Shown here: positions 16,387 to 39,897 of the stretch, one piece after another
Layout of the letters: every line of letters starts with the position of its first letter
Numbering within the stretch: position 1 is the first letter of the stretch
DNA from: a virus
IMG/VR virus record: IMGVR_UViG_3300028573_000022
Span: 1 to 52,896 of that record
Direction: 5' to 3' (one strand)
Length of the DNA: 52,896 nucleotides
The notes under the pieces: generated by a model
What the model was told of the DNA's origin: nothing
The model's input: the letters and a program-made list of their open reading frames with translations, nothing else
Databases searched by the model: none
Made by a program: the position numbers and the translations under genes

Positions 16387-16432
16387 AGTCGTTCGCGGTT
16401 GTTTTAGCTGGGGTGGAGGGGGGATTTCTGAA

Positions 16433-21326: not shown

Positions 21327-21354
21327 AGTGAAGTTCAATCCGAAGGAGGATGGC

Positions 21355-24084: not shown

Positions 24085-25044
24085 ATGAGTGGAATGGGAC
24101 AGACGACTTACATGACCCGGCTCCCGGTCGCTTATGCCGGGCAGATCGCCGACAACGCGCCTCGGACCATCGAGACCGGCCTGAACAACGAATCGGCGCC
24201 GATTCCTTTCGGGGTCGGGCTCGTGAAGGACGCCGGCGATCGCAAGTACCGGCTGCCGAATGCGTCCGGTGACGCGATCGACGGGGTTTCGATCTTCCAG
24301 CACAGCGTCAACACGATCGGCATGTCGACCCTGACCGGGAAAGCCAGCCCTGGACCGGTCGGCGACACCACCATCACGACGTGGGTGGCCAGCACGGCAT
24401 ATCGCGTCGGCGACATGGTGAACTGCCACGGCAAGATCTACAAGTGCGACGTGGCCGGCACTTCCGACACGCCGACCGGCCCCACCGCCGTCACCACCAC
24501 GAACGCCGGCATCACGGACGGCACGGTCAAGTGGCACTTCGACCGGTACGCCTCGGCGGGCACGGGACCCGGGTACCAACCCGGCATCCCCGTGGCAGAC
24601 ATCTTCGGCCTGCTGGTCGACGGTCGGGTCTACGTGATCCCTGAACTCGACGTGACCCAGGATGATGCGGTCTACTGCAGGTTCGCCCTCGGCAGCGTGG
24701 CCGGATCCTCGGATCAGCTCGGTGCCTTCCGCAACGCGGTCGACTCGGTCGCTGCCTGGGCCGCGGGACATGCGTATTACGTAGGCGATCGGGTGAGCGT
24801 CGGTGGCCATCTCTACGAGTACACGACCGCCGGCACCTCGGACAACTCGAGCCCGCCGGTTCCGCCCTCGACCCTGACGACCACCGCCGACTCCATCACG
24901 GACAGCACCGCCAAGTGCAAGTACCTCGGCGAGCAGGCGACGGGCGCCAGCAACACGGTCGTGAAGGGCGCTCGATTCGCTGCGACTGCCAAAGCTGGCG
25001 TTCCGGTCCCGATCGCCTTCAACAAACTCCTGGCCCGAAGCTAA
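24085..25044 (+). CDS. Capsid decoration/cement protein with two inserted carbohydrate-binding-like modules
   Basis: 319 residues from ATG 24085. The N-terminus (RLPVAYAGQIADNAPRTIET, then PIPFGVGLVKDAGDRKYRLP) and C-terminus (ARFAATAKAGVPVPIAFNKL) are typical of structural cement proteins between protease and capsid genes. Two modules interrupt it: residues ~98-153 and ~222-283, each W-x-A-x3-Y-x-V-G-D...G-x-x-Y...AGTS...ITD. They resemble CBM5/12-like chitin-binding folds and recur in the sheath and baseplate wedge. The capsid surface would thus display sugar-binding domains. Confidence 0.8.
   Translation: MSGMGQTTYMTRLPVAYAGQIADNAPRTIETGLNNESAPIPFGVGLVKDAGDRKYRLPNASGDAIDGVSIFQHSVNTIGMSTLTGKASPGPVGDTTITTWVASTAYRVGDMVNCHGKIYKCDVAGTSDTPTGPTAVTTTNAGITDGTVKWHFDRYASAGTGPGYQPGIPVADIFGLLVDGRVYVIPELDVTQDDAVYCRFALGSVAGSSDQLGAFRNAVDSVAAWAAGHAYYVGDRVSVGGHLYEYTTAGTSDNSSPPVPPSTLTTTADSITDSTAKCKYLGEQATGASNTVVKGARFAATAKAGVPVPIAFNKLLARS
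24376..24543 (+). repeat. Carbohydrate-binding-like module, copy 1 (decoration protein)
   Basis: Encodes TWVASTAYRVGDMVNCHGKI, followed by YKCDVAGTSDTPTGPTAV and ITDGTVKWHFD. Same plan as copies at 24748, 29976 and 37115. Confidence 0.75.
24748..24933 (+). repeat. Carbohydrate-binding-like module, copy 2 (decoration protein)
   Basis: Encodes AAWAAGHAYYVGDRVSVGGH, followed by LYEYTTAGTSDNSSPPVPPS and ITDSTAKCKYLG. Closest to the sheath copy (AGTSNNSSPAVPPS). Confidence 0.75.
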
Positions 25045-25068
25045 CTCCAGGGACAAAGGACAACGCCA

Positions 25069-26010
25069 ATGTCAGCATTCAGAAGCTTCAATCTCCCGGT
25101 CCTGGACGCAGCCGAAAACCTCTTCTTCGAGCGTGAGCTCGAGGCCGTGGCGGCGAAGTCCTACGACATGAAGTACCCGCAGTTGAAGGGCCGCCAGTTG
25201 GTCCCCGTGAAGAACGACGTGGACCGCGGCATGGAAACCTTCAAGTTCAAGCAATACGACATGGCGGGTGTCGCCCTGATCGCGAACAACTACACGGACG
25301 CCATTCCGATGGTGAACGTGCGAGGCAAAGAGTTCCGCGTCGCCATCAAGCCGGTGGTGGACGGGTTCCAGTACAGCATCCAGGAAATCCAGAATGCTCG
25401 GAGGAACGGTATGCCGCTCGAGCAGCGAGAGGCCAATGCGGCCCGCCGCGCGATCGAGGAGAAGATCGACGCCATCATCGCGACCGGCGACTCGGATACG
25501 GGTCTTCTGGGCCTGCTCTCGCTGACGAATACGATCGTCTACACGCCCCCGAACGGCACCAGCGGTCACACTCAGTGGTCGACGAAAACGCCGCTCGAGA
25601 TCCTCGCGGACCTCAACGCGCTGGCGAATACGATCGTCTCCACCACGAACGAGGTCGAGATCCCCGATACGATCGTGATGCCCACCATCCAGCGGCAGCT
25701 CATCGCCAACACCCCGATCAGCCTCGCGGGCGCAACGTCGGTCTCCATCGAGGAGTACTTCCTCAAGACCAACAACTACATCAAGGAGATCGTCTCCTGG
25801 TACAAGTGCAAGGGCGCGGGCGCGAGCGGGACCGATCGCGCTGTCGCGTACCGCCGAGACCCGGACGCGATCCAGGCCGTCATTCCGCTGGAGGCCGAGT
25901 TCCTGCCTCCGCAACCGGTTGGTTTCGTGTTCAAGATCCCGGCGCACGCGCGCACCGCGGGCGTGGTCACGTATTACCCGATGTCGATCTGCTACGCAGA
26001 CAACATCTGA
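25069..26010 (+). CDS. Major capsid protein, DUF2184 family
   Basis: 313 residues from ATG 25069. YDMKYPQLKGRQLVPVKNDV, AAKSYDMK, EFRVAIKPVVDGFQYSIQEI, RRAIEEKIDAIIATGDSDTG and the C-terminal PIPLEAE-like IPLEAEFLPPQP match the DUF2184 HK97-fold capsid family. Follows the decoration protein by 24 nt. A second copy of the fold lies at 21355-22131. A strong pseudoknot-forming sequence begins 16 nt after its stop. Confidence 0.92.
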   Translation: MSAFRSFNLPVLDAAENLFFERELEAVAAKSYDMKYPQLKGRQLVPVKNDVDRGMETFKFKQYDMAGVALIANNYTDAIPMVNVRGKEFRVAIKPVVDGFQYSIQEIQNARRNGMPLEQREANAARRAIEEKIDAIIATGDSDTGLLGLLSLTNTIVYTPPNGTSGHTQWSTKTPLEILADLNALANTIVSTTNEVEIPDTIVMPTIQRQLIANTPISLAGATSVSIEEYFLKTNNYIKEIVSWYKCKGAGASGTDRAVAYRRDPDAIQAVIPLEAEFLPPQPVGFVFKIPAHARTAGVVTYYPMSICYADNI

Positions 26011-26025
26011 AAAGAGGTCCGCCAG

Positions 26026-26089
26026 GGCTGGCGCCAAGAGCCCGACTCGCGCAGGGGCGCCAGCCTTCCCCCTCCGGCCTGCGCGAGTC
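26026..26089 (+). promoter_or_regulatory. H-type RNA pseudoknot (or competing hairpins) after capsid gene
   Basis: Four arms in the order S1 (26026-26035, GGCTGGCGCC), S2 (26044-26055, GACTCGCGCAGG), S1' (26056-26065), S2' (26078-26089), with perfect 10-bp and 12-bp complementarity. Loops are 8, 0 and 12 nt, a textbook H-type pseudoknot; alternatively the two stems form one at a time. Just downstream CTCCT and AGGAG (26092-26105) can hide the ribosome site of the next gene. Confidence 0.7.
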
Positions 26090-26112
26090 ACTCTCCTCGA
26101 AGGAGTCACGCA

Positions 26113-26538
26113 ATGCTGGTCCGAAACACCACCACCTCAATCCAGGTTCTCTCGTACCACTCGCGCCCCGCAACGACGAAAAGCGAGAAGGGCGACGCCA
26201 TGCCGCCCATCACGAAGACGATCACGCTGATGCCAGGGAACAACGAGGTCGATCCGGCTGACTGGACCGAGCTCATGAAGAATTCGCACGTCCAGAATCA
26301 GACCGAGGATCGCGTCTTCGAGGTTGAGAAGGATGTCAGCCTCAAGGACATCTCGAAGCTATCCGACCGGAAGGCCATCAAGGTCGTACAGGAGACGTAC
26401 CTCCGGGAGATCCTGCGCAACTGGGCCCGGCTCGAGCATCGGCCCGAGATCGCGAAGGCGATCGAAGAGCAGCTCGCGAAGGTCTCCGGAATCTCCGAAG
26501 CCAAGTCCGATCCGGTCTCGCAGTCGGCCGAAGGGTAA
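26113..26538 (+). CDS. Hypothetical head-region protein
   Basis: 141 residues from ATG 26113 (AAGGAG upstream); ATG 26200 (MPPITKTITLMPGNNEVDPA) is a plausible shorter start. The core TELMKNSHVQNQTEDRVFEV and a helix ETYLREILRNWARLEHRPEI suggest a small structural or assembly protein. Position after the capsid gene is typical for head-completion accessory proteins, but no family is recognised. Confidence 0.65.
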   Translation: MLVRNTTTSIQVLSYHSRPATTKSEKGDAMPPITKTITLMPGNNEVDPADWTELMKNSHVQNQTEDRVFEVEKDVSLKDISKLSDRKAIKVVQETYLREILRNWARLEHRPEIAKAIEEQLAKVSGISEAKSDPVSQSAEG

Positions 26539-26543
26539 CATCC

Positions 26544-26885
26544 ATGGCGGCGCCTGCCGATGTGATCCGGATCGCCCCCGAGTTCGCCGCGCTGGACGCG
26601 ACGACGGTGATTCAGCCGTTCATTGACGACGCCGCCAACGAGATCAACCCGAATAGGTGGGGGCGGCAGGCGAACCGTGCAGTTACTCTGCTCGCCGCGC
26701 ACGCCCTCGCCTGCTCCTATCCGTCGCTGTACCTCCGGCCGCCGACGACGGACCACGTTGGTCCAGTGACGATCTCCTACGCGAACTCGGTCGCGCCGCG
26801 CATGGATGAGCACGCTACGACCCGGTTCGGGCTCGAGTTCATGCGCCTTCGTCGCCTGTTGGGGCCATCGGCCATGGTGGTCTGA
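26544..26885 (+). CDS. Head-tail adaptor, DUF4054 family
   Basis: 113 residues from ATG 26544. FAALDATTVIQPFIDDAANE, then AVTLLAAHALACSYPSLYLR and a C-terminal TRFGLEFMRLRRLLGPSAMV is the DUF4054 pattern (gp6/gp15-like connector). The neck position between capsid and tail-completion genes supports this. Confidence 0.8.
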   Translation: MAAPADVIRIAPEFAALDATTVIQPFIDDAANEINPNRWGRQANRAVTLLAAHALACSYPSLYLRPPTTDHVGPVTISYANSVAPRMDEHATTRFGLEFMRLRRLLGPSAMVV

Positions 26886-27500
26886 ATGGGCCACCTGATC
26901 GTCAAGGACCACGGGTGGAATAAGCTCAAAGCCGATCTTGAGAAGCTCGCGCGCGGCGAATCCTACGTCAAGGTGGGGATGGTCGGCGAGAAGGCGGCCA
27001 AGGTCGAGCCTGAGCATGCGGCGGCCGGCGGTGAGCCCCTGACGAATGTGAAGCTCGCCGCCATCCACGAGTTCGGAGCGCCGGAGCGGGGCATCCCCGA
27101 GCGCTCCTTCTTGCGGTCGACCTTCTCGACTCACCGCGCCGAGTACCAGGAGCTGCTCAAGAAGGCGGCGGCCGAGATCATGTCGGGCAAGTGGAAGACC
27201 TCGATCCGGAAGATGCTGTCCGCTATCGGATTCAAGGCCAAGTGGGACGTGAAGGACGCGATCCTCAAGGGGACCGGGATCCCACCGCCGAATGCTCAAG
27301 CCACCATCGACGCGAAGAATCGCAAGGGCGCGTGGAACAAGGGATCGAAGCTGCGAGATAGGAGCGGAAAATTCTCTCGCACCGGTGACTCATCGGGCCC
27401 CCGCACCCTGGTCGACACCACCGTGATGGTCAAGGCGATCGATCACGCAGTGGTGATTTCCGGGGAAGCACCAGAACCTAACGCAGGAGAGAAAGAATGA
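26886..27500 (+). CDS. Tail-completion/virion morphogenesis protein (gpG/HK97 gp10-like)
   Basis: 204 residues from ATG 26886, directly adjacent to the connector stop. GESYVKVGMVGEKA, KLAAIHEFGAPERGIPERSF and LRSTFSTHRAEYQELLKKAA are characteristic; the C-terminal part (IPPPNAQATIDAKN, LVDTTVMVKAIDHAVV) matches neck proteins of contractile-tail phages. Confidence 0.8.
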   Translation: MGHLIVKDHGWNKLKADLEKLARGESYVKVGMVGEKAAKVEPEHAAAGGEPLTNVKLAAIHEFGAPERGIPERSFLRSTFSTHRAEYQELLKKAAAEIMSGKWKTSIRKMLSAIGFKAKWDVKDAILKGTGIPPPNAQATIDAKNRKGAWNKGSKLRDRSGKFSRTGDSSGPRTLVDTTVMVKAIDHAVVISGEAPEPNAGEKE

Positions 27501-28243
27501 AGCGCCTGATCTGTCTGATGGTCGTGGTCGCCGCGGGCCTAGCTAGGGCGAGTGACTTCACGTCCGACTCAACCAACATCGACTCGTTTCTTACCCGCGG
27601 CGGACTCCCCGAAACCATGCGAGCGGTTCGGGATCTCCGGACCGACGTGAAGGCGCTACAGGCGGCGACCACCGGCACGAACTCGGGTGACGTTACGATC
27701 GGCAGCGTGGGGGCGGCTACTGCAAACGGCGCGTCGCTGTCGGGCCAGATGCTTTCGTTGACGCCGGCCGATGGCACGCATCCGGGAATCGTGACGACCG
27801 GCTCTCAGTCGATTGCGGGCGCCAAGACATTCACCGGCGCCATTGGGGCATCCAACCTGAGCGGAACCAACACGGGAGACGTGACCCTCGCTGCAGTGGG
27901 CGCGACGCCGTCCGCGAACGGGGCCAGCCTATCAAGCCAGGCGCTCACGCTGCAGCCGGCTGACGCCACCCACCCTGGCGTGATGACCGCGGCCGCGCAG
28001 ACCTTCGGCGGGGTGAAGACCTTTGCCGGCCTGGTAGCGGGAACGACCTCGCTGTCTACCTGCGGGACCACGATTGCCGAGGGGACGCTCTCTCAGCAGG
28101 GCGGCGGGACCAGCGGCACGCGTACCAAGCTCTGTTGGTGCACGAGCGACGGCAGCGGGACGCCGGCCTACGCCTGGAAAAACATCACGACGATCGCCGC
28201 CAACGACGCGGCATCCATCGGGACCGCTACGACCTGTCCATGA
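27497..28243 (+). CDS. Secreted fibre-like protein with beta repeats
   Basis: 248 residues from ATG 27497 (4-nt overlap). A Sec signal peptide is clear: MKRLICLMVVVAAGLARAS. Then ASDFTSDSTNIDSFLTRGGL and MRAVRDLRTDVKAL, followed by two repeats of the type GTNSGDVTIGSVGAATANGA / LSLTPADGTHPGIVTTGSQ / GAKTFTG (about 75 residues each), a trimeric-fibre style seen in tail and head fibres. The end KLCWCTSDGSGTPAYAWKNI resembles the C-terminus of the protein at 28644. Lying amid neck genes, it may be a neck or head fibre; the signal peptide is odd for a virion protein. Confidence 0.7.
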   Translation: MKRLICLMVVVAAGLARASDFTSDSTNIDSFLTRGGLPETMRAVRDLRTDVKALQAATTGTNSGDVTIGSVGAATANGASLSGQMLSLTPADGTHPGIVTTGSQSIAGAKTFTGAIGASNLSGTNTGDVTLAAVGATPSANGASLSSQALTLQPADATHPGVMTAAAQTFGGVKTFAGLVAGTTSLSTCGTTIAEGTLSQQGGGTSGTRTKLCWCTSDGSGTPAYAWKNITTIAANDAASIGTATTCP

Positions 28244-28647
28244 TCCCCGTCGCCGCCGCCATTGATCGCCTTGCTGGTGGGACCTACCCGGTCACCCGTC
28301 GCGCGATGGGCTCGTATGTGGATGGCCGGTACGTCCCCGGGACCGCCTCCGTGCTGTCGATCAAGGCGCTCATCCAGCCTGCTGGCCACCTCGAGGTCAT
28401 GCGCCTGCCCGAGGGCGAGCGCGACCGGAAGACGATCGCGATCTACACCCGTACGCCGCTCGTTCATGCCGTGGCCAACGGTCCGCCCTCCGATCGAATC
28501 GCCTGGCGCGGCGACGTGTTCGAGATCTCTTCGATCGACGAATGGAACGAGTACGCCGGGTTCACCTACGCGCTGGCAACGAAGATCCAGGACCTCACGG
28601 ACTCGGGATCCCTTGAGTCGCCACTGGAAGGTGGGGTAGTCGGATGA
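28240..28647 (+). CDS. Head-tail connector/stopper-like protein
   Basis: 135 residues from ATG 28240. RRAMGSYVDGRYVPGTASVL, IKALIQPAGHLEVMRLPEGE and KTIAIYTRTPL, WRGDVFEISSIDEWNEYAGF match small neck proteins of the gp16/stopper type in DUF3383-sheath phages. Overlaps neighbours by 4 nt. Confidence 0.7.
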   Translation: MIPVAAAIDRLAGGTYPVTRRAMGSYVDGRYVPGTASVLSIKALIQPAGHLEVMRLPEGERDRKTIAIYTRTPLVHAVANGPPSDRIAWRGDVFEISSIDEWNEYAGFTYALATKIQDLTDSGSLESPLEGGVVG

Positions 28648-29039
28648 AAGACGTGAATAAATTCTCAATCGTCGTCACATCTATCGGCCTCGTCCTCGCT
28701 GCGATCGCCGCTACGGCCGACGCCGGCACCTTCGTCTCGGACCCGACCACCATTCTCCCGGGGCCAAAGACCGCCCTGCGCAGCCTGCCGGAGGGCGCCG
28801 ACCCCGCGAACTTCATCCGCGCCGCCGACTACAACGCCCTGAGGGACGCGCTCACCGATGTCCGCAGCGCCCTGATGCCTGTGGTCACCACCTCGACAAC
28901 GTGCCCGACATGCGCGGCCGCGCTCCGCGGATGGGGCTGCTACGTCCAGGGCGGAACCGGCGCGGCCGACACGTTGTCGGTCTGCTCCAGGAGCTCCAGC
29001 GCCTCCTATGCCTGGCATGTTGTGACCTGGGGACCCTGA
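28644..29039 (+). CDS. Secreted fibre-like protein
   Basis: 131 residues from ATG 28644. Signal peptide MKDVNKFSIVVTSIGLVLAA followed by IAATADA. Mature start GTFVSDPTTILPGPKTALRS and RAADYNALRDALTDVRSA resembles the N-termini of the proteins at 27497 and 44394. The end WGCYVQGGTGAADTLSVCSR followed by SSSASYAWHVVTWGP resembles the C-terminus at 27497. Probably a short fibre or secreted adaptor. Confidence 0.65.
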   Translation: MKDVNKFSIVVTSIGLVLAAIAATADAGTFVSDPTTILPGPKTALRSLPEGADPANFIRAADYNALRDALTDVRSALMPVVTTSTTCPTCAAALRGWGCYVQGGTGAADTLSVCSRSSSASYAWHVVTWGP

Positions 29040-29557
29040 TGCTCTCCTGGACCGCCATCGAGAGGGCCATCGTCAACCACGTGAAGGCGGCCACAGGGAT
29101 TGAGGTCATCTTCGCGAATCAGGTCGGCGAACAGCCGCTCATGCCCTACGCGACCATCAAGATCAACGGCCCTCGGGCACTTTCGCCGCAGCCCGAGATC
29201 CTATTGGGCTACGACTCCGGCGCGCCTGCTGGGCAAGAAGTCACCCAAACGGTCATCCTGCATGGGGAGATCCAGGTCTCGATTCAGACCTACTCCCAGA
29301 TTACGGCGGGCGCGGGGACGGCGCGCGAGCTGCTCGAACAGATCCGAAGGACGCTCTTCCTGCCTGGTCGGCGGGATCTGCTAAGCGCAGCCGGGTTGGC
29401 CCTGCTGGCCGCGAGTGATACTCAGGATCTGTCAGTGCTGCTCGAAGCAACATGGCAATCTCGGGCGGCCATGGACGTGAGATTCAACGTGGTCGATGAC
29501 TCCGCGAAAGATCGCACCGGGTACATCGCCACCGTGCACGTGACGGGATCGGCCTAG
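29039..29557 (+). CDS. Tail terminator/neck protein (LIC_12616-like)
   Basis: 172 residues from ATG 29039 (TGATG overlap with the preceding stop). WTAIERAIVNHVKAATGIEV, NQVGEQPLMPYATIKINGPR, HGEIQVSIQTYSQ and LEATWQSRAAMDVRFNVVDD match the LIC_12616-type neck/terminator family found immediately before DUF3383 sheath genes. Confidence 0.75.
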   Translation: MLSWTAIERAIVNHVKAATGIEVIFANQVGEQPLMPYATIKINGPRALSPQPEILLGYDSGAPAGQEVTQTVILHGEIQVSIQTYSQITAGAGTARELLEQIRRTLFLPGRRDLLSAAGLALLAASDTQDLSVLLEATWQSRAAMDVRFNVVDDSAKDRTGYIATVHVTGSA

Positions 29558-29567
29558 GAGGCCAGAC

Positions 29568-31058
29568 ATGCCGCTGAACGACATTTTCACCGTGAACATC
29601 ACGACCTCGAGTCCTGGGCTCACCGCGCTGGGCTTCGGCAAGCCGATGATCCTGGGCGCGTACACCAAGACGTGGTCGGAACTCTACCGGGAATACGCCT
29701 CGATCTCGGAAGTGGCCGTCGACTTCCTCGCGACCGATCCCGAGTACCGGATGGCCGCGCGCCTCTTCCAGCAGGATCCCCGGCCGCCGACCGTGGGAGT
29801 CGGCCGCGGTGCCCTGCCCCCGACCCAGCGATGGGCCATCACTCCGACCGTGCTCAACGCGACGGCGTACAAGCTCTACGTCGGCGACAAAACGGTGACG
29901 TACACCTCGGACTCGACGGCGACCGCAGCCGAGATCATCGGCGGGCTGCTCGCGCTCATCAACGCGCTGGCCCCTGCCTGGGCCGCGAACCACGCCTACT
30001 CGGTCGCTGATCGCTGCTCTTCGGGTGGGCTCGTCTATGAGTGCATCACCGCGGGAACCAGCAACAACTCCAGCCCTGCGGTTCCGCCGTCCGGGACCAC
30101 CTCGAACATCACAGATGGAACCGCACATTGGAAGTACGTCGGCGCCGCGGTGACGGCGAGCGACCAGACGACCTACCTGCGGATCGTCGTCCAGACCGCC
30201 GGCCTGTGGACCTCGGTCGAGGTCGACAACGTGACCCGGCTGTCGCTCGCTCAGGACCACGCCGATCCGGGCGTCGCGACCGACCTGGCCGCCATCAAGC
30301 TCGAGGATGATTCCTGGTACGAGCTCTTGACCCTCTCCAATTCCTACGCGGTCGTACTCGCCGCTGCCGGATGGGTCGAGACCGATGGAGGCAAGACCTA
30401 CGCGGCGCAGACCCAAGACACCGCGGTCGAGGCGACGGCACTCGCGGGCGCGACGGACATCGGCGAGAAGCTGCAGTCCCTCGGCTACGCGAGGACTCAC
30501 CTCTGGTACGACCGGGACGGCGCGGACTTCCTCGACGCCGGCGTCTCCGGTGCGTGCCTGCCGCTCGATCCCGGCACCGAGACCTGGAAGTTCAAGCAGC
30601 CGGCGGGATGCGCCGCCCTCTCGCTGACCTCGACACAGAAGAGCCACCTGGACGCGAAGAACGTCAACTACTTCTACGTCGTCACCCAATCGCTCGCGAT
30701 CACCGGCGAGGGCAAGGTGGCGAGTGGCGAGTGGATCGACATCGTTCGCGGGCGTGACGCGCTGGCGAACGCCATCCAAACGGCAGTGGTCAATGCCGTC
30801 ACCGACCCCGCGATTTCCAAGTTGCCGTATACCGACGCCGGGATCCAGGTGATCGCGAACCGAGTCCAGGAGGCGCTCACCAAGTTCGAGGTCTCGCCCG
30901 GACTGCTGACCCCGGGATCCTCGACGATCTCGGTTCCGAAGGCATCGAGCGTGAGCGACGCCGACCGCGCGGCCCGCGTCCTCAACAACCTGTCTTGGAC
31001 GGCGCAGCTCCAGAGCGCCATACACTCCGGCACCATCTCCGGCGTGGTCACGTACTAA
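29568..31058 (+). CDS. Tail sheath protein, DUF3383 family, with inserted module
   Basis: 496 residues from ATG 29568 (AGGAGG upstream). FTVNITTSSPGLTALGFGKP, YREYASISEVAVDF, LAAIKLEDDSWYELL and RVLNNLSWTAQLQSAIHSGT identify a DUF3383 contractile sheath. Residues ~137-192 are an extra carbohydrate-binding-like module between INALAP and TASDQTTYLRIVVQ. If exposed, the sheath would carry the same module as the capsid decoration protein. Confidence 0.9.
   Translation: MPLNDIFTVNITTSSPGLTALGFGKPMILGAYTKTWSELYREYASISEVAVDFLATDPEYRMAARLFQQDPRPPTVGVGRGALPPTQRWAITPTVLNATAYKLYVGDKTVTYTSDSTATAAEIIGGLLALINALAPAWAANHAYSVADRCSSGGLVYECITAGTSNNSSPAVPPSGTTSNITDGTAHWKYVGAAVTASDQTTYLRIVVQTAGLWTSVEVDNVTRLSLAQDHADPGVATDLAAIKLEDDSWYELLTLSNSYAVVLAAAGWVETDGGKTYAAQTQDTAVEATALAGATDIGEKLQSLGYARTHLWYDRDGADFLDAGVSGACLPLDPGTETWKFKQPAGCAALSLTSTQKSHLDAKNVNYFYVVTQSLAITGEGKVASGEWIDIVRGRDALANAIQTAVVNAVTDPAISKLPYTDAGIQVIANRVQEALTKFEVSPGLLTPGSSTISVPKASSVSDADRAARVLNNLSWTAQLQSAIHSGTISGVVTY
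29976..30143 (+). repeat. Carbohydrate-binding-like module, copy 3 (sheath)
   Basis: Encodes AWAANHAYSVADRCSSGGLV, followed by YECITAGTSNNSSPAVPPSG and ITDGTAHWKYVG; the ITDGTxxWxY ending matches copies 1 and 4. Confidence 0.8.
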
Positions 31059-31070
31059 GGGAGTCTCCCG

Positions 31071-31502
31071 ATGCCAGTTGGCAATTACGACCCCAGCAAG
31101 AACCAAATCTCGATCGGCTCCTATCCGGTGACGGATGGCGTGGCCGCCGGCACCTTCGTGAAGGCGAGCCGCAAGACCGACTCCTTCAAATCGGACGTGG
31201 GCGCATTCGGTGACGTGGTGCTGAACCACAGCCATGACGAGCGCGGAGACATCGAGATCACCGTGCTCCGCACGTCCTCGCTCAACGACTACCTGTCGAG
31301 CCTGATGGCCAAGCACGAGCAGTTCGGTACAGGTTTCGTCGCGATCACCATCAAGGATCTGAACGGCACGACCAAGGTCTTCGGCGCCGAGTGCTGGCCG
31401 GTGAAGTACCCGGATGTCGAAGAGGCGGTCGAGGCACAGAACCGCGTGTGGAAGTTCGAGGTGGCGCACCTGCAGATGAAGGTCGGCGGCGAAAATACCT
31501 GA
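31071..31502 (+). CDS. Tail tube protein, DUF3277-like
   Basis: 143 residues from ATG 31071. MPVGNYDPSKNQISIGSYPV, FGDVVLNHSHDERGDIEITV, SLNDYLSSLMAKHEQFGTGF and AQNRVWKFEVAHLQM match inner-tube proteins that follow DUF3383 sheaths. Forms the tail tube inside the sheath. Confidence 0.85.
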   Translation: MPVGNYDPSKNQISIGSYPVTDGVAAGTFVKASRKTDSFKSDVGAFGDVVLNHSHDERGDIEITVLRTSSLNDYLSSLMAKHEQFGTGFVAITIKDLNGTTKVFGAECWPVKYPDVEEAVEAQNRVWKFEVAHLQMKVGGENT

Positions 31503-31536
31503 TCCCGCCGGGGGTCAGTAAACGGAGGAGGCGGAC

Positions 31537-32165
31537 ATGATCGAGACGCGCACCAAGGAGATCGGGGGAATCACCTACCAGGTGACGCAGCTCCCCGCGA
31601 TGAAGGGCTTCAAGCTGCAGCGTAGGTTGGCGGCGATCTTGGGCCCTCCTGCGGCCGAAGTCATGGGGGGAGCGGTATCGGTCTCGGAGCTCCTCAAGTT
31701 CAATCTCAATCTCGGCGTGCTCGCCCCTGCGCTGCGGGACCTGTTCGAGCGGCTCACCGAGTCCGAGTTGGAGACCATCACTCGCTCGCTGCTGGAGACG
31801 GCCCAGGTCACCGAAAGCGGGAAGACGGGGCCCGTGATGCCCGTCTTCGACACTCACTTCGCAGGCCGGTACAACGACCTTTACGAACTGATCGGGTTCG
31901 CGCTGGAGGTGAACTACGGCGATTTTTTAGGCGGCCTCGGCGCGAGATTCGCCAGCGCCCAGGCCCGCACGTCGCCTATCGCGGGATCGAACACCTCCTC
32001 GACACCTGGCCTTGTTGGGTCCTCATCCTAGCCGATAAGGCCACGATGGTCGAAACGCAGACCGTTCTTTCGGTGGATGACATCCAGGACGGGGTTGACG
32101 CGCTGATGGCGCAACAGGAGGCAGACGAGGAGTTTCGACAACTGATGACGGAAAAGAAGGGATAG
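31537..32165 (+). CDS. Tail assembly chaperones expressed by -1 frameshift
   Basis: The short product (31537-32031, 164 residues) starts MIETRTKEIGGITYQVTQLP and ends in the original frame. At 31923-31929 the frame reads (ga)T TTT TTA, an ideal -1 slippery heptamer. After slipping, the -1 frame is open to TAG at 32163-32165, encoding RREIRQRPGPHVAYRGIEHL, then LDTWPCWVLILADKATMVET and QEADEEFRQLMTEKKG. The product (~209 residues) is the longer chaperone, as in lambda G/GT. The tape measure gene begins 5 nt later, as expected. GC-rich pairing sequence follows the heptamer. Confidence 0.85.
31923..31929 (+). promoter_or_regulatory. Programmed -1 frameshift site TTTTTTA
   Basis: A six-T run then A in the phase X XXY YYZ of the chaperone gene (codons TTT TTA). 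Possible stems (GGCG 31930-31933 with a downstream CGCC) lie just after it. Confidence 0.85.
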
Positions 32166-32170
32166 CACCA

Positions 32171-33784
32171 ATGGTGTTGCAGGAATTGTTCTCCGTTATC
32201 GGTTTTAAGGTCGACAAGCCGTCGCTTTCCAATGCCGAGGCCGCAGTCGAGAAGGTGAAGCACGGGCTGACTCGGCTCGGTGAGGCGTTCGCCGCCTTCG
32301 AACTCGTCAAAAAGTTGAAAGAGATCGTCGAGGAGACCGCAGGCGCGGCGACGGGGGCCGCGAAAGCCGCTCAGCGGATCGGCGTCGCCCGGGAGTCCTT
32401 CGAGGAGCTCGCGCACGCCGCGCATGAGTCCGGGGTTCCCATCGAGGCGATGGAAACCGGGCTCAAGTTTCTTAACCGCAACCTGTACGCTGCGGGTAAA
32501 GGTAGCGGTGAGGCTGGTCAGTCGTTCCGTGCTCTAGGGATCGCAACCCGCGATGGCACTGGGAAGCTCCGTTCCGCCGACGACGTGATGATGGACGCGG
32601 CCGAGCGGTTCGCCGGCATGAAGGATGGAGCCGAGAAAACGGCGCTGTCCATGCGGCTGTTTGGCCGCTCAGGCAACGAACTGATCCCGATGCTCAACAA
32701 GGGCCGGGAAGGCCTCGCTGAGATGCGCCAGGAGGCGCATGAACTCGGGCTGGTGTTCTCCGAGGAAGACGTAGCCGCAGCAAAAGACTTCACGGTCTCA
32801 TCCCGCCGGCTGGATTCCGTCCTAGAGGGCGTGAAGCGACGCATCGGGATCGCGCTCCTGCCACAGCTCGGGAAAATGAAAAAGGAGTTCGCAGATTGGA
32901 TCATCGCCAACCGGGAGCTCATCAAGCAGCGCGTGGTCGAGTTCGCCGAAGGGCTTGGGAAGGCCCTGCGCGCGGTGGTTCAGGTGACAGAGCCACTCCG
33001 GGCCATGATTGCTTCGCTCATCGACCTGGTCGCGTCATCCAGTGAGGCGAAGACCGCGATCACAGTGCTCGGCGGCGCGCTGCTGCTCATGTTCAATGCG
33101 CCGCTGGCTTCGGCCATGGCGCTCTTCGGCATCATCGAGGAGATCTGGGGCTGGATCACCGGGAAGCGTGACACGCTCCTAGGTGACTGGCTCGGGCCAT
33201 TCCAGCAACTCGACAAGCTCAATCCGGCCGATAGCGACTTCACCAAGGGCATCAAGAGCCTGTTCATTTACATCAAGGAGAATGGACCGGGAGTCAAGGA
33301 CACCCTTGTAACGATCGCAAACGCGTTGCGTGCGATCTGGGACGTGACAGGAAAACCGATCACCTGGCTATTCCAGGAGACGGCCAAGCAGGCGCAGAAC
33401 ATGGCCCTGCCTGGTCCGGCCGGAGCTTTGGTCAACGTGGTCGCCGCGGGGCTCGCCGGCACAGGGACAGGCAGAGCGGCCGGAATAGGCGTTACTCCGG
33501 ATTCGACTCCCGCCGCAGGATCGGCGTGGCTCGGAACTTCGAGCGCGGGCGCCTTCGTAAACCTGCTGGCTGCCGTTCGAGACTCGATGCGAACGCCATC
33601 GTTTCAGCCCCTGGGCGGATCTGGAATTGGATCCATGGGCGGCGTGTCGGTAACGGTGAACGTTGACGCGGGCGGCACCGTAGGAGCCGCTGATGGTTCC
33701 AGGCTCGGGCAGCAGATCGGAGAACAGGTCCGAATCGAAATACAGAAGGTGGTCAGCAACGCGCACGTCTCGGTGAACCGATGA
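32171..33784 (+). CDS. Tail tape measure protein
   Basis: 537 residues from ATG 32171. The N-terminus is helical (VEKVKHGLTRLGEAFAAFEL), with GVARESFEELAHAAHESGVP and MRLFGRSGNELIPMLNKGRE, phrases common to tape measures; a hydrophobic segment (~297-330, ITVLGGALLLMFNAPLASAM) could be a membrane-spanning part. The Gly/Ala-rich C-terminus ends in SVTVNVDAGGTVGAADG. At ~0.15 nm per residue the tail would be about 80 nm long (rule of thumb). Confidence 0.85.
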   Translation: MVLQELFSVIGFKVDKPSLSNAEAAVEKVKHGLTRLGEAFAAFELVKKLKEIVEETAGAATGAAKAAQRIGVARESFEELAHAAHESGVPIEAMETGLKFLNRNLYAAGKGSGEAGQSFRALGIATRDGTGKLRSADDVMMDAAERFAGMKDGAEKTALSMRLFGRSGNELIPMLNKGREGLAEMRQEAHELGLVFSEEDVAAAKDFTVSSRRLDSVLEGVKRRIGIALLPQLGKMKKEFADWIIANRELIKQRVVEFAEGLGKALRAVVQVTEPLRAMIASLIDLVASSSEAKTAITVLGGALLLMFNAPLASAMALFGIIEEIWGWITGKRDTLLGDWLGPFQQLDKLNPADSDFTKGIKSLFIYIKENGPGVKDTLVTIANALRAIWDVTGKPITWLFQETAKQAQNMALPGPAGALVNVVAAGLAGTGTGRAAGIGVTPDSTPAAGSAWLGTSSAGAFVNLLAAVRDSMRTPSFQPLGGSGIGSMGGVSVTVNVDAGGTVGAADGSRLGQQIGEQVRIEIQKVVSNAHVSVNR

Positions 33785-34371
33785 GCCTCCTCCTCTACTA
33801 CACGCTCCCCGGCGCCAAACTCGCTGAGCTCGAACTCGACGCAACGCTCAGCGAGCAGCATTCCAGCCGGGGAGAGATCACCGATTTCCCTGTGGAGAGC
33901 GGGGCCAACGTCTCCGACCACAAGCGGGTGCTGCCTGACCATTTGCGCATCGAGGGCGTCGTCAGCAACAACCCGCTTCCTTCTCAGACCGGATCGCCAT
34001 CGACCTTCGAGGATGACATGCGCAGCGGCATCTACGCCGGTCGCGCCGAGTCCGCCTATGACGAACTCCTGTCGATTCATCAGGCCGGGATAGCGATCAC
34101 GATCTCCACATCCCTACGGCAGTACGACAACATGGAGTTGGAATCGCTGGAGGTTCCCCGGAGCTCCGCGATCGGTGACGTGGTTCACTTCACTGCCGAC
34201 TTCAAACAGATTACCACGGTGGAGTCACAGACCGTGACGATCCCGAAGAAGGCTTCGAAGCCCCCGCAACAGCACCTCGGGACGCAACCGAAGAAGACCG
34301 AGACCAATCCGGGGCCAGTGAAGAGCATATTCAAGCAGGGCAAGATTGCTGTCTCAGGGATCAACTCATGA
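33781..34371 (+). CDS. Baseplate protein (Dit-like N-terminus)
   Basis: 196 residues from ATG 33781. GEITDFPVESGANVSDHKRV, LPDHLRIEGVVSNNPLP and MELESLEVPRSSAIGDVVHF, TADFKQI is the plan of the baseplate protein directly after tape measure in this phage type. The C-terminal 45 residues are Pro/Lys-rich. Connects tube to hub. Confidence 0.75.
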   Translation: MSLLLYYTLPGAKLAELELDATLSEQHSSRGEITDFPVESGANVSDHKRVLPDHLRIEGVVSNNPLPSQTGSPSTFEDDMRSGIYAGRAESAYDELLSIHQAGIAITISTSLRQYDNMELESLEVPRSSAIGDVVHFTADFKQITTVESQTVTIPKKASKPPQQHLGTQPKKTETNPGPVKSIFKQGKIAVSGINS

Positions 34372-34697
34372 TCTACTACCTGCCAGCGCGGACCGATCTG
34401 CAGCATTACGACTACCAGACCGACTTGGAGGGCGCGGTCTACACGCTTGAACTCTACTGGGATCAGCGCTCCGAATGTTGGTTGCTGTCGGTCTACGATG
34501 CCGAGTCGAACCCGATCGTCAGCGACCGAAAGGTCTTGCTCGGCTCCCCGCTGTTGGGGCGCGGGAATCGGCCGAGCGGCCCGCCCGGAACCATGATCGC
34601 GATCGACACCACCGGGGCTAACGTGGAGGCTGGGATCAGCGACCTGGGAGATCGCGTTCAGCTCGTCTATCTCGACTCCACGGAGGCGCTGTCGTGA
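34368..34697 (+). CDS. Baseplate plug-like protein (DUF6983 type)
   Basis: 109 residues from ATG 34368. GAVYTLELYWDQRSECWLLS, VYDAESNPIVSDRKVLLGSP, then FPP-like RPSGPPGTMIAIDTTG and DLGDRVQLVYLDS match the small protein family between Dit-like and hub genes. Confidence 0.75.
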   Translation: MIYYLPARTDLQHYDYQTDLEGAVYTLELYWDQRSECWLLSVYDAESNPIVSDRKVLLGSPLLGRGNRPSGPPGTMIAIDTTGANVEAGISDLGDRVQLVYLDSTEALS

Positions 34698-35617
34698 GCC
34701 TGGTTGGAACCATCACGAGCCGACAGCTTGTCGGGACCATCACCGAAACCGTCTTGGTTGGCACCATCACGACCAAAGCCACAGACGCGGGGCGCCTATG
34801 GCAACGGGCGTGGTCAGTCACGGTCGACACCATCAAGACCGATCAGCTACGGGTGGAGTTCACCGTCAAGAAGACGTTGACCGCGAATCCGAACACCTGC
34901 GATCTGAAACTCTACAATCTCTCGGAGACGACCCGAGCTCAAATCCAACGGAAGCGTGTGCCTGTCATCCTGGTGGCGGGATACCAGACCACCTCGGAGA
35001 TCATCTTCTCTGGGACCGCGCGCACCGTTGATCATGTCCGAGAGGGCGCCAACTGGGTCACGCACATCCAATGCGGCGACGGGGAGATGGCATTCACCGA
35101 CTCGCTGTCGACGATTTCGCAGGCCCCGGGAGTCACGGTACAGGACCAGCTTGCGCGCATCATCGGCGACATGAACATCAACACGCGAGACGCGGTCGCG
35201 GCGATCAGAAGCGGCAAGCTGTTGTTCGCCTTCCCTCGGCTACAGCAGGGGTACACCGCGCAGGGCAAGACGGTCCGGCTGCTCGACGCCGCACTTAGGC
35301 CTCACGGAATCCACTGGTCGATCCAAAACATGACGCTGCAGCTACTCCAGGGCTCGGCCCCCACCTCTGACACGGCGGTGCTGCTGTCGCCGGCGTCGGG
35401 GCTCATCGGCTCGCCCGACCACGGCGCGCCGCAGAAGGACGGGGCGCCCACGTATATCAAACTCAAGTCGCTACTCCAGCCCTCGATACGTCCGGGGCGT
35501 GTGCTACAACTCCGAACGCAGGCATTCAACGGCGATTACGTGACCCAGAAAGTCGAGCACAAGGGCGACTCTCATGGCCAAGAGTGGATCACCGAGATCG
35601 AATGTCTGCCGAGGTGA
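34694..35617 (+). CDS. Baseplate hub protein (gpD-like)
   Basis: 307 residues from GTG 34694. AGRLWQRAWSVTVDTIKTDQ, RVEFTVKKTLTANPNTCDLK, LYNLSETTRAQI, VILVAGYQTTSEIIFSGTAR and GDGEMAFTDS follow the hub pattern of such phages. The N-terminus carries three copies of LVGTIT about 10-11 residues apart, an extra low-complexity tail probably from local duplication. Confidence 0.8.
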   Translation: MSLVGTITSRQLVGTITETVLVGTITTKATDAGRLWQRAWSVTVDTIKTDQLRVEFTVKKTLTANPNTCDLKLYNLSETTRAQIQRKRVPVILVAGYQTTSEIIFSGTARTVDHVREGANWVTHIQCGDGEMAFTDSLSTISQAPGVTVQDQLARIIGDMNINTRDAVAAIRSGKLLFAFPRLQQGYTAQGKTVRLLDAALRPHGIHWSIQNMTLQLLQGSAPTSDTAVLLSPASGLIGSPDHGAPQKDGAPTYIKLKSLLQPSIRPGRVLQLRTQAFNGDYVTQKVEHKGDSHGQEWITEIECLPR

Positions 35618-35620
35618 CGC

Positions 35621-36259
35621 ATGCCTTCCGCTCTGCCTGAGATTGGACCGCTACCCGACCTGTCCGACGTGATCCGGCTCGCGGTGTCGCTCGCGGTGGC
35701 CGAACTCCACGTGTCCCTACCGGCGAAGGTCGTGCGCGTGGACCTGGCAAAAGGCCAGGTCGATGCCAAGCCGGTGGTGAAGGATGTCCTGAACGACGCA
35801 AATGGCAACCGGATAGCCCTATCCGTGCCGGTGGTGACGAACGTCCCGCTGGTCTTCCCGGGCGCGGGCGGCATGCGGATCACCTTCCCTGTCGCAGTCG
35901 GAGACACCGTGCTGCTGGTCTTCTCGGATCGCTCCCTGGACTCGTGGGCGGTGCAGGGCGGCGAAGTGGACCCGCTGGACGACAGGCGTCACCATCTCTC
36001 GGATGCCATCGCTATCCCGGGCCTGCGCGACTTCGGGCACGCCTGGAAGGGCGTGGACGCCGGCACCATGACCATCGGCAAGGACGGCGCCGCCCAACAT
36101 GCCGCGGGGCTCGGAGACCGAATCAGGACCGAACTTGACGCCGTCTGGGCTGCGATCTACGGCGCCACCGGGCACACGCATACCAGCAACGGAACTCCGG
36201 CCACAGGGCTTGCGTCCAAGCAGACTGTGACCTCCGGTACGGTGAAGGTCACGGAATGA
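35621..36259 (+). CDS. Baseplate spike (gpV/Gp138-like)
   Basis: 212 residues from ATG 35621. LHVSLPAKVVRVDLAKGQVD, VTNVPLVFPGAGGMRITFPV, AVGDTVLLVFSDRSLDSWA is the Gp138/gpV OB-fold; the C-terminus GHTHTSNGTPATGL has the HxH motif of metal-binding spike tips. Probably the membrane-piercing spike. Confidence 0.85.
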   Translation: MPSALPEIGPLPDLSDVIRLAVSLAVAELHVSLPAKVVRVDLAKGQVDAKPVVKDVLNDANGNRIALSVPVVTNVPLVFPGAGGMRITFPVAVGDTVLLVFSDRSLDSWAVQGGEVDPLDDRRHHLSDAIAIPGLRDFGHAWKGVDAGTMTIGKDGAAQHAAGLGDRIRTELDAVWAAIYGATGHTHTSNGTPATGLASKQTVTSGTVKVTE

Positions 36260-36263
36260 TACG

Positions 36264-36704
36264 GTGATCTCGATGGCATCGCTTGGGATACAGGTCGTCG
36301 GCGGGGACATCGTCTGGGGCGGCGGCGCGATCGCGGTCGTGACGGACCCGCTCGCCGCCCTGGCGCAGCTCCTGGTGTCGCGTCTCTCGATGGTCCTCGG
36401 CGAGTGGTTTCTTGACCCTGACGATGGCTTGGACCTCTACAACTCGATCCTAGGGAAGAGCCGGGGCGAAGGGGTCATCCGCCAGGCGCTCAGGACCCGG
36501 ATCCTGGGCACCCCTGGCGTGAAGGCGCTCCAGTCCCTATCCCTGGAGCTCGACGGCCAGACCAGGGCGCTTGCGATCCGAATCGTGGTTCAGGCGACGC
36601 CCACCGCGGCCAGCGTGGTGACCGGCTCGACGACCATCACGATTTCGTCGTCGGACGTGACTCGGACCAGTGAACTCGGGTTCGAGCTTGGAGGCGAGCT
36701 GTGA
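36264..36704 (+). CDS. Baseplate wedge protein (gp25-like)
   Basis: 146 residues from GTG 36264; ATG 36273 (MASLGIQVV) is possible. LAQLLVSRLSMVLGEWFLDP, DDGLDLYNSILGKSRGEGVI and RTRILGTPGVKALQSLSLEL match the gp25/gpW-like wedge family upstream of baseplate J. Confidence 0.8.
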   Translation: MISMASLGIQVVGGDIVWGGGAIAVVTDPLAALAQLLVSRLSMVLGEWFLDPDDGLDLYNSILGKSRGEGVIRQALRTRILGTPGVKALQSLSLELDGQTRALAIRIVVQATPTAASVVTGSTTITISSSDVTRTSELGFELGGEL

Positions 36705-38053
36705 CAACGGCCTATGGCGTGACGGACACCGGATTCGTGGTCAAGTCGCTTGAGGAGTGCGTTTCCGAGTTGCAGGCGCTCTTCTACGCCACATTCGGCA
36801 ACGGGATCTCGCTCGACAACAGCACGCCCGAGGGTCAGTTGATCGGCATCATCTCGGAGCGGGAGTCCGAGCTTTGGGACATGGCATCCGAGGTCTACGC
36901 CTCCCGGGACCCGGATCAGGCCACCGGTGCGGCGCTGGCGGCCCTCGCCATGATCACCGGCACGGTCGGACCCAAGGCGGCCACGCACTCGCAGCTCGGC
37001 GCGCTGACCCTCGGGGGAACCACGGGTACCATCGTCCCCGCCGGCTCGCAGGCGAGCGTCTCAGGGACCGGGGTGAAGCTCCAGACCCTGCAGTCCGGAA
37101 CCCTTGCCGCGGTGAGCGCCTGGGCTGGATCTCATGGCTACGCCCTCGGCGCGCGCGCGACGAACGGCGGAAGCGTCTACGAGGTCGTCACCGCCGGCAC
37201 CTCGGCGAGTTCAGGTGGCCCTACCACCTCCGGAACTGACATCACCGATGGCTCGGTCCATTGGCGCTATCTGGGTGCGGGTGATGGGGCGGTGGACGTG
37301 ACAGCGCAGGCCGTGGACACCGGCCCCCTCGCGGCGCCGTCGCGGACGATCTCGCAGATCGAGACCCCGGTGTCGGGCTGGGCGTGGGTCACGAACGCCA
37401 ACGATGCCGCGCCAGGCACGGACGAAGAGACGGACGCCGCTCTCCGCACGCGCCGCTTGGCTGAGCTCGAGGCGCAGGGGAACTCGACCGTCGACGCCAT
37501 TCGCGCTCACCTTCTGAGGGTGGCCGGAGTGACGGCCTGCACCGTCTTCGAGAACATCACCGACACCACCGACACCGATGGACGCCCCCCGCATTCCGTC
37601 GAGGTAGTGGCGACGGGCGGGGCGACCCAGGACCTGTTGAATGCGGTCTGGGCGGCCAAGCCGGGCGGGATCCAGTCCTACGGGACCACGTCCGGAACCG
37701 TGGTGGACTCACAGGGGACCGACCACACTGTGTCATTCGCGCGCCCAGTCCCAGTCCCGATCTACCTGATCCTCGACGTGGCCATCAACGCCGACCTGTA
37801 CCCGGCAGATGGAGACGCCCAGGTCGAGGCGGCCGTGCTGGCCTACGGGATTGCCTCTCTGGCGCTCGGGGTGGACGTGATCCCCTTCCAACTCTCGCGC
37901 GTGATCGAGGTCAGCGGAGTCGAGGACGTGACGATCTACCTCGGCACGGCGCCGGCGCCCAGCGGCCAGACGAAGATTTCGATCGGCCACACGCAACAGG
38001 CGGTACTGGACTCCAGCCGAATCACCGTCACCTCTTCGCCCTTCGTGCCCTGA
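36701..38053 (+). CDS. Baseplate J-like wedge protein with inserted module
   Basis: 450 residues from GTG 36701. GFVVKSLEECVSELQALFYA, STPEGQLIGIISERESELWD, GTDEETDAALRTRRLAEL-like PGTDEETDAALRTRRLAELE and AIRAHLLRVAGVTACTVFEN are baseplate J. Residues ~139-192 are the fourth carbohydrate-binding-like module, placed between a beta strand and AVDVTAQAVDTGPLAAP. Confidence 0.9.
   Translation: MTTAYGVTDTGFVVKSLEECVSELQALFYATFGNGISLDNSTPEGQLIGIISERESELWDMASEVYASRDPDQATGAALAALAMITGTVGPKAATHSQLGALTLGGTTGTIVPAGSQASVSGTGVKLQTLQSGTLAAVSAWAGSHGYALGARATNGGSVYEVVTAGTSASSGGPTTSGTDITDGSVHWRYLGAGDGAVDVTAQAVDTGPLAAPSRTISQIETPVSGWAWVTNANDAAPGTDEETDAALRTRRLAELEAQGNSTVDAIRAHLLRVAGVTACTVFENITDTTDTDGRPPHSVEVVATGGATQDLLNAVWAAKPGGIQSYGTTSGTVVDSQGTDHTVSFARPVPVPIYLILDVAINADLYPADGDAQVEAAVLAYGIASLALGVDVIPFQLSRVIEVSGVEDVTIYLGTAPAPSGQTKISIGHTQQAVLDSSRITVTSSPFVP
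37115..37276 (+). repeat. Carbohydrate-binding-like module, copy 4 (baseplate J)
   Basis: Encodes SAWAGSHGYALGARATNGGS, followed by VYEVVTAGTSASSGGP and ITDGSVHWRYLG. Confidence 0.75.
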
Positions 38054-38647: not shown

Positions 38648-39346
38648 ATGGGGCTTCTGACTTCGCTTCCTCGTTGGGCCACTGGCGGTAGCGCTCAGAT
38701 CACGGAGCCGTCTAGCGGTAAAAAGGACACAGGATGGGTTCCGGCCGAGAAGCCTCCGGCTCAATACATGAATTGGCTCTTCAAGACAATCTATAACGCG
38801 GCTGTAGTTCTTGATGGACTCGCAGGGATAGCGATGACGTGGACGGCGGCGCACGTTTTTAACGCCGGCCTGTCGGCGTCCAGCGCTGCATTTACAGGCG
38901 CGATCACAGTGCAGACCCCTACCGTCGCGGCCAACCCGCTTCGCTTTGACTCGGTGCTGGGCGTGGCGAATCTGCCAGCGCTGAACAGGGTCGCGAGCAG
39001 TGACAGCGGATCGTTTTACACCACTTCGGACACCCTGGTGGACGTAACCAATCTATCCGTCAGCATCACCACCAGGGGGCGCCCTGTCATGATTGCAGTG
39101 ACGCCATCTGGAGCCATAAACGGATCGACGATACTGGTGGACGGAACGGCAACGACGCAAAACACCATGTCTATCACCAGAGATGGGACGACTGTGGCCG
39201 TAATGACTGTTGGGTACGGAGCGAACATACCGGCGATACTCATGTTTGATTCGCAGGCTGCGGGCACGTACGTCTACAAACTGCGGGCTAGCGGCACGTC
39301 AGGGATAGGCGTGTATTACTGCAAACTATCGGTGATTGAACTGTAA
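38648..39346 (+). CDS. Tail fibre protein
   Basis: 232 residues from ATG 38648 (AGGAGAG upstream). The N-terminus RWATGGSAQITEPSSGKKDT, GWVPAEKPPAQYMNWLFKTI is a widespread phage fibre attachment motif. The body is beta-rich and ends AGTYVYKLRASGTSGIGVYY. The last 31 nt overlap the convergent lipoprotein gene. Local GC is lower than in preceding tail genes, suggesting a different origin. Confidence 0.8.
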   Translation: MGLLTSLPRWATGGSAQITEPSSGKKDTGWVPAEKPPAQYMNWLFKTIYNAAVVLDGLAGIAMTWTAAHVFNAGLSASSAAFTGAITVQTPTVAANPLRFDSVLGVANLPALNRVASSDSGSFYTTSDTLVDVTNLSVSITTRGRPVMIAVTPSGAINGSTILVDGTATTQNTMSITRDGTTVAVMTVGYGANIPAILMFDSQAAGTYVYKLRASGTSGIGVYYCKLSVIEL

Positions 39347-39897
39347 GCTACACACCGAACGTCTAACAGCTGCCATTCCTCGTATGCGTCGCTCTGCCAG
39401 TATGCCTTGGTGACGGTGCCTGCCGGACAGTCGGACAGTCCGTCCCAGGCGGCATTAGCCCATGAACACTCGACGTAGCCTCCAGAGATCTCTACTACGT
39501 CAGCATTCGAGCAGAGCCTGCTTTGATCGGCCTGAACGATAGTCGACTGGGTCGGCAGGGTCCCACAAGTGACCGAGGCGAGTTCAAACGGATCGCTATC
39601 GAACGAATCGAAGACCGCGACTATTTTGGCGTCCTGACAGGTCGGAAACTTTGTCCAAGCCTCAACGTCAGCCGCGTGGTCGGTAGGGCGGTAGGAGATC
39701 CAAGAGGCGTTGCCCCAAGCGCAGGTGATCTCTGTTGTTTGGTCGCTGCTCTGGGTGCTGACCAAGATCTCGGTGGTGCGGGTATCCGCATTAGAGCAGG
39801 CCGTGGTTTGGTCGGCCCATGTGGTCTTGTCTCCCTGGATCGGAGAACCACAGCCGATAGTCAGGACCAGCGTCATCATCGCAATTCGGGTCATCAT
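39316..39897 (-). CDS. Two-domain Cys-rich lipoprotein
   Basis: 193 residues on the minus strand from ATG 39897 (39894 is a second Met). MTRIAMMTLVLTIGC is a lipoprotein signal with a lipobox ending in Cys. The mature part holds two related units: CSNADTRTTEI...TCAWGNASW...C...C and CSNADVVEISGGYVECSWAN...C...C, each about 80 residues with four Cys, probably two disulfide bonds each. Last gene of the leftward island. An envelope-located accessory role such as superinfection exclusion is possible but unproven. Confidence 0.7.
   Translation of the reverse strand: MMTRIAMMTLVLTIGCGSPIQGDKTTWADQTTACSNADTRTTEILVSTQSSDQTTEITCAWGNASWISYRPTDHAADVEAWTKFPTCQDAKIVAVFDSFDSDPFELASVTCGTLPTQSTIVQADQSRLCSNADVVEISGGYVECSWANAAWDGLSDCPAGTVTKAYWQSDAYEEWQLLDVRCVAYSSITDSLQ

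Follow-up and report, generated by a model that had tools for sequence, protein, structure and literature searches.

The window analysed here is a 52,896-base virus record of IMG/VR (IMGVR_UViG_3300028573_000022, positions 1 to 52,896) with a myovirus head and tail gene cluster, in whose open reading frames (ORFs) a module of about 60 residues occurs in four in-frame copies: two in the head cement (decoration) protein, one in the contractile tail sheath protein and one in the baseplate wedge protein J. These four segments are copies of one module and not a product of chance, and they are true insertions at fixed loops of their host proteins. The reading that we favour, with clear reservations, is that they represent a single accessory domain resembling the carbohydrate-binding modules (CBM) of families 5 and 12, accommodated in virion loops as an exchangeable surface adhesin with putative weak, multivalent glycan binding.

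The copies were detected with a profile built from the modules of other phages only, the sequences of the window being left out, which was run on all six frames. On the plus strand it marks copy 1 at 24367-24549 (cement residues 95-155, 59.3 bits), copy 2 at 24742-24936 (cement residues 220-284, 50.8 bits), copy 3 at 29967-30149 (sheath residues 134-194, 77.4 bits) and copy 4 at 37103-37282 (J residues 135-194, 81.0 bits); the next best place in the window scores 7.2 bits, and 20 shuffled sets peak at 11.6. Furthermore, any three copies recover the fourth, with E-values of 8e-13 for cement copy 1, 9e-22 for cement copy 2, 2e-22 for the sheath copy and 2e-14 for the J copy, and no fifth copy was found across the whole 52,896-base record. 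An initial annotation, made from the letters of the window, had proposed four copies of one module in three unrelated virion proteins, and all of them are present, in frame, in the proteins that it named; the span it gave (24376-37276) is corrected to 24367-37282. Pairwise amino-acid identity between copies ranges from 33 to 59%, with W, Y, G, Y, A-G-T-S and I-T-D invariant in all four. With respect to the consensus proposed in that annotation, cement copy 2 has lost the last Trp (ITDSTAKCKY), and the sheath and J copies have only a degenerate V-G-D element. The closest pair, cement copy 2 and the sheath copy, is 59% identical in protein, 63% in DNA and 49% at third positions; since even this pair has diverged so far in DNA, the duplication is not recent, and a recent duplication or gene conversion within the window is ruled out.

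The cement protein (24085-25044, plus strand, 319 aa) matches PF22758 (Phage_cement; E 6.3e-15, above the cutoff) and contains the module twice. Its monomer model aligns with the Pam3 cement protein 8hdt_G over 157 of 166 residues (Z 18.7), and its core with the cement structures of Pam3 (8hdt), E217 (gp24, 8frs) and XM1 (7kmx) at Z 15-19; these PF22758 proteins have the same core in chains of 160-211 aa, whereas the window protein reaches 319 aa with two inserts. The core is modelled with confidence, and the modules lie at block values of the predicted local distance difference test (pLDDT) of about 45-83. A module-free homologue of 166 aa exists (L095:1018-1515). In the alignment of the three closest cement homologues (L001, L005 and L019), the site of copy 2 is also filled and that of copy 1 is empty. 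A scan of viral contigs with the window cement protein alone returned no relative, and the cement homologues came from loci already fetched.

Homologues of the sheath and of J were gathered with module-free queries, namely the C-terminal part of each protein, and since part of the loci had been retrieved by a module search, separate, less biased counts are given for both. The sheath protein (29568-31058, plus strand, 496 aa; phrog_205, E 5.8e-84) yields a monomer model with a mean pLDDT of 90.5 and a predicted template modelling score of 0.88, in which the module forms a four-stranded unit of its own (block pLDDT about 79-96) within the extra domain of the sheath, preceded by a helix at 120-132 and followed by a strand at 195-199. 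The extra domain of T4 gp18 lies on the outside of the tail, so by this analogy the sheath module most likely sits on the tail surface. R2 pyocin lacks the extra sheath domain A, which T4 retains (E217 paper, PMC10329688). The solved sheaths closest to the window model, Sf14 (9c3b_A, Z 34.4) and Bas63 (Z 33), are without the module insert in profile alignment, and the Pam3 sheath (384 aa) matches the window sheath profile mainly from position 182 onward. The module is carried by 13 of 104 unique full-length sheath homologues and its site is empty in the other 91 (carriers in the less biased counts: 7 of 63 sheaths from viral contigs and 2 of 36 from bacterial genomes); in the alignments of empty sites, the helix ending in GLxAAINA continues directly into the following strand.

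For protein J (36701-38053, plus strand, 450 aa; PF04865, E 6.5e-14; phrog_6, E 4.4e-65), 60 of 123 unique homologues carry the module, 59 of these at the loop used in the window, and the less biased counts are 41 of 75 J proteins from viral contigs and 0 of 44 from bacterial genomes. A clean empty site is found in L185, 44% identical over the aligned length, and in the empty state ...TGVRFRTLADVTI is joined straight to GGGGTVVAAMESEDTGPL. That the segments are an integral part of each fold is ruled out by the empty sites that many homologues of each of the three proteins display, and the earlier proposal that the module interrupts three unrelated proteins is borne out: many relatives do without it, as the clean empty sites of sheath and J and the 166-aa cement protein attest, and it is not a core element of related phages.

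The J loop is a slot that is not reserved for the CBM-like module. In a census of 139 J homologues, taken with a looser length cut, the loop holds the module in 60, a domain of some 80-110 residues unrelated to it in 42, both in none and neither in 37; among the 79 proteins without the module the N-terminal part is short, of the empty type, in 26 and long in 51, and a few of the long type have two or three additional kinds of insert in the loop. Loops with other, unrelated inserts were seen at L173:2350-3735, L195:2353-3741, L204:2278-3738, L234:2251-3753 and L252:16594-18048. The commonest alternative insert is a relative of the sheath outer domain: its profile matches 62 sheath ORFs; for the window sheath itself, E is about 5e-5 (database of 34,616 ORFs). 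The module of the window sheath is nested within the domain related to this insert; thus, with the J slot holding either the module or a sheath-related domain, the same loops take interchangeable domains. Separately, some J proteins (L027, L038, L041, L045, L056, L063, L065 and L007) have a second module near the C-terminus, at about residue 430, which is a second slot.

The sheath module was seen only in records with a J module as well (8 distinct records versus 0), and in 17 J alone has it (one-sided Fisher p 0.0004, with no correction for relatedness), which hints at joint selection and may also reflect descent. Sheath and J modules are also more similar within a genome than between genomes (0.55 versus 0.50; permutation p 0.009, eight genomes, kinship uncorrected), a weak signal, and the window itself does not display such an excess.

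Regarding the fold, profile searches and structure comparison agree with the resemblance to CBM5/12-type folds proposed in the initial annotation, and the module is predicted to be an independently folding domain of this kind. Pfam CBM_5_12 (PF02839) matches the cement protein in two stretches (E 3.9e-13, 49.6 bits, the cutoff being 26.2), the better of which spans only profile positions 1-31 of 44; the sheath stays below the cutoff (18.4 bits) and J gives no match. The module family as a whole aligns with the CBM12 of ChiA1 in hhalign (probability 95, E 2e-8, the ChiA1 letters beyond residue 29 being provisional), and a profile search of PDB returns 7eea at E 4e-6 over the whole module and 1ed7 at E 2e-5 over its first 29 residues. 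Consistently, the model of cement copy 2 superimposes on a domain of the cyanophage Pam1 tailspike (7eea_B) with a VIA-align Z of 9.3 and a root-mean-square deviation of 1.5 Å over 57 residues, and on the CBM5/12 domains of chitinases and chitin deacetylases with Z 5.0-6.7 and about 2 Å over 47-50 residues. Thus, the CBM5/12 fold is supported for copy 2 by structure comparison and for the module family by hhalign. No immunoglobulin-like (Ig-like) domain stands among the structure matches listed for the cement model or copy 2, a missing match excluding nothing. The module has in common with CBM5 and CBM12 (PF02839; ChiA1 1ed7, ChiC 2d49, deacetylase 4nz1/3wx7) the small beta core and the W-x5-Y...GD...Y-x-C signature; it differs in being 10-15 residues longer, in its conserved C-terminal D-G-T-x-x-W-x-Y hairpin and in the absence of an exposed chitin-binding aromatic pair. 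The domain of the Pam1 tailspike gp17 (7eea, chain residues about 587-643) is the same full-length module, hairpin included; there it occurs as a single copy in a tailspike, whereas in the window phage it is spread over head, sheath and baseplate.

The binding face is a different matter. CBM5 domains bind chitin through a pair of adjacent exposed aromatics (Y-W or W-W), two other aromatics forming the core (PMC8449059). An exposed aromatic pair after the conserved T-S is absent in all four window copies, and of 159 module sequences only 13 have a W in the CBM5 binding stretch. Across 174 phage modules the conserved positions are W4, Y10, Y23, G29-T-S, P37, D46-G, W51 and Y/F53, with key W, Y and D positions kept in 94-99% of copies; between T-S and the C-terminal hairpin, aromatics reach 0-4% per column, and the window copies have none. 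In the hhalign alignment, with provisional ChiA1 letters beyond residue 29, the exposed Trp of ChiA1 falls on a Ser/Gly stretch of the module, and the alignment to CBM5/12 stops about where the binding Trp would stand. As judged from these residues, the module has a CBM5/12 fold and lacks the known binding face. We reject canonical chitin binding on account of the missing aromatics; chitin is unlikely to be bound by that route, and the ligand is probably not chitin held through the classical aromatic face. Of the initial proposal, the CBM5/12-like fold is thus borne out; of the targets then suggested, neither chitin nor mucin found support: chitin for the reasons above, and mucin because nothing indicates an animal mucin, the named carriers coming from groundwater metagenome-assembled genomes (MAGs), a spring and mostly cyanobacterial hosts.

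The module is a common accessory domain of phages and is not special to the window phage. One module pattern retrieved 190 relatives in viral contigs, and 79 kept loci together with earlier loci comprise 113 host ORFs in 37 clusters. Besides J, sheath and cement, the hosts include the tail terminator, podovirus tail-tube proteins, head virion-structural proteins, a DUF2612 baseplate protein, tailspikes and an amidase. The trio of head, sheath and J recurs in a close relative (G002/L005, 49,114 bases, whole-record scan), and four adjacent tail/neck ORFs of a podovirus-like contig of 8.9 kb contain five copies between them (L058:3170-7891). Other carriers are the J protein of a spring-water myovirus, a tail fibre of Bacillus phage Eldridge and, in Glutamicibacter phage Voltaire, the protein annotated as major capsid protein, which ends in a module (L311:61-1668, E 6e-12). 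T4-type sheaths of the Synechococcus phages S-SSM4 (L308, E 5e-12) and ACG-2014d (L309, E 2e-9) have it at about residues 196-249; since these sheaths are of a distant and far longer type (about 800 aa) than that of the window, the sheath was probably recruited as a carrier more than once. A tblastn search of isolate phages with the module consensus gave no match at E 1e-3; at E 10, with profile checks, cyanophage sheaths and others were recovered, so the negative reflects a sensitivity limit.

Promiscuous accessory domains of virions are already known, and a CBM5/12-derived module with slots in sheath and cement is less described. Some 25% of tailed phages carry Ig-like domains, distributed over five protein classes (PMC7602432); these are likewise small, promiscuous beta domains on head, tail, baseplate and decoration proteins (Fraser et al. 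2006; PMC7602432). As in that system, our module is found in several unrelated virion proteins (37 clusters) and its presence varies among homologues; conversely, its fold appears to be different, its main carriers include the contractile sheath, and three parts of the particle bear it in one genome. The 936 lactococcal siphophages display CBMs on the neck, on an extension of the major tail protein and on Dit, two of which bound host cells as fusions to green fluorescent protein (PMC6669499, Hayes et al. 2019). As with the CBM-like module of the window phage, several virion parts bear the CBMs, and the host-cell binding of their tail-tube and neck CBMs sets a precedent for adhesive display; compared by description, their CBMs are BppA-like and for the most part extend neck, tail and Dit proteins, and carriers among sheath or cement proteins are not described for them. 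We found no description of the module in sheath or cement proteins in the open-access PMC literature, and a paper on carbohydrate-interacting proteins of gut phages does not mention CBM, chitin or sheath.

Judging from homologues, the cement copies would decorate the head at three-fold positions, the sheath copy would stand on the outer extra domain and the J copy on the baseplate. The E217 particle contains 180 cement trimers and 204 sheath subunits (PMC10329688); with similar numbers, hundreds to over a thousand module copies would cover the particle, about 1,000 on the head and 100-200 on the sheath. In the adhesin reading that we favour, each copy may bind weakly a polysaccharide at the surface of the host cell or in its matrix, and the avidity of the array could keep the phage near its host until specific receptor-binding proteins engage; a particle made adhesive towards polysaccharide in this way is plausible. 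The domain that matches best in structure belongs to the receptor-binding part of the Pam1 tailspike, where a helix and a distal sandwich are proposed to recognise a host extracellular polysaccharide (PMC9382816), and this, together with the copies in tailspikes, tail fibre and amidase, gives a context for adhesion. Several points weigh against the adhesin: the residues conserved across the 174 copies look like fold residues, with no conserved aromatic platform in the stretch by which CBM5 binds and with the CBM5 pair gone; the modules of the cement model are of moderate confidence; and exposure at the surface of the assembled particle is extrapolated from homologues. A broader version, which we put forward only tentatively, would see here a second phage display system beside Ig-like domains, derived from CBM5/12, with the chitin face lost and the hairpin gained, swapped in and out of fixed slots in proteins of the head, sheath, baseplate, neck and fibre and selected as a set within one virion, whose head, sheath and baseplate would then bind the same polysaccharide.

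The structural look of the conserved residues and the missing binding aromatics would equally suit a spacer or extra cement, which stabilises the particle by filling gaps or contacting subunits and binds no sugar. Cement and sheath form dense lattices in which added domains could reach their neighbours, and the J slot alternatively holds a relative of the sheath outer domain, with no known sugar role; however, the module also resides in tailspikes, tail fibres, an amidase and podovirus tail-tube proteins, among quite different neighbours, and many relatives of each host manage without it, so that we hold this explanation to be the less likely one. The scattered, very wide distribution over unrelated proteins and the exchange with other domains in one loop might instead reflect a nearly neutral, promiscuous domain spreading by recombination into tolerant loops with no selected function, which appears improbable given the retention of the key W, Y and D positions, the persistence of the J site in proteins that share only 42-57% identity in their C-terminal parts, and the restriction of the sheath module to records with a J module (relatedness uncorrected). 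A true CBM5/12 chitin binder, by which the phage sticks to chitin or animal mucin, would agree with the fold and the Pfam match, but the four copies lack the aromatic pair, the ChiA1 Trp falls on Ser/Gly, and groundwater MAGs, a spring and mostly cyanophages, rather than animal mucosa, are the sources of the named relatives; we consider it very improbable.

If the module does bind glycans, the head and the sheath would be adhesive surfaces, and not the tail tip only, a point relevant to host finding by phages in biofilm, soil or water. The isolated cyanophages S-SSM4 and ACG-2014d, as carriers of a sheath copy, are open to direct testing, and the sites compiled here provide a list of cement, sheath and J loops naturally used to carry foreign domains.

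The record has further features of its own. The major capsid protein gene (25069-26010, plus strand; PF09950, E 2.7e-60) adjoins the cement gene, and a second gene of the major capsid family lies at 21247-22131 (plus strand; PF09950, E 1.2e-22), with a product 36% identical to the former; by sequence, these are two capsid paralogues in one phage. In the neck/tail cluster, the plus-strand ORFs at 27497-28243 and 28644-29039 have signal-peptide-like starts, secreted or envelope proteins being unexpected there; paralogy of the two was considered and discarded, as BLASTP detects no relation. Just behind the tail genes is a lipoprotein-like ORF (39316-39897, minus strand) with no Pfam match, and a transfer-messenger RNA gene at 16085-16387 (plus strand; Rfam RF00023, 104.6 bits) has the predicted tag ANEPMQQLAVA.

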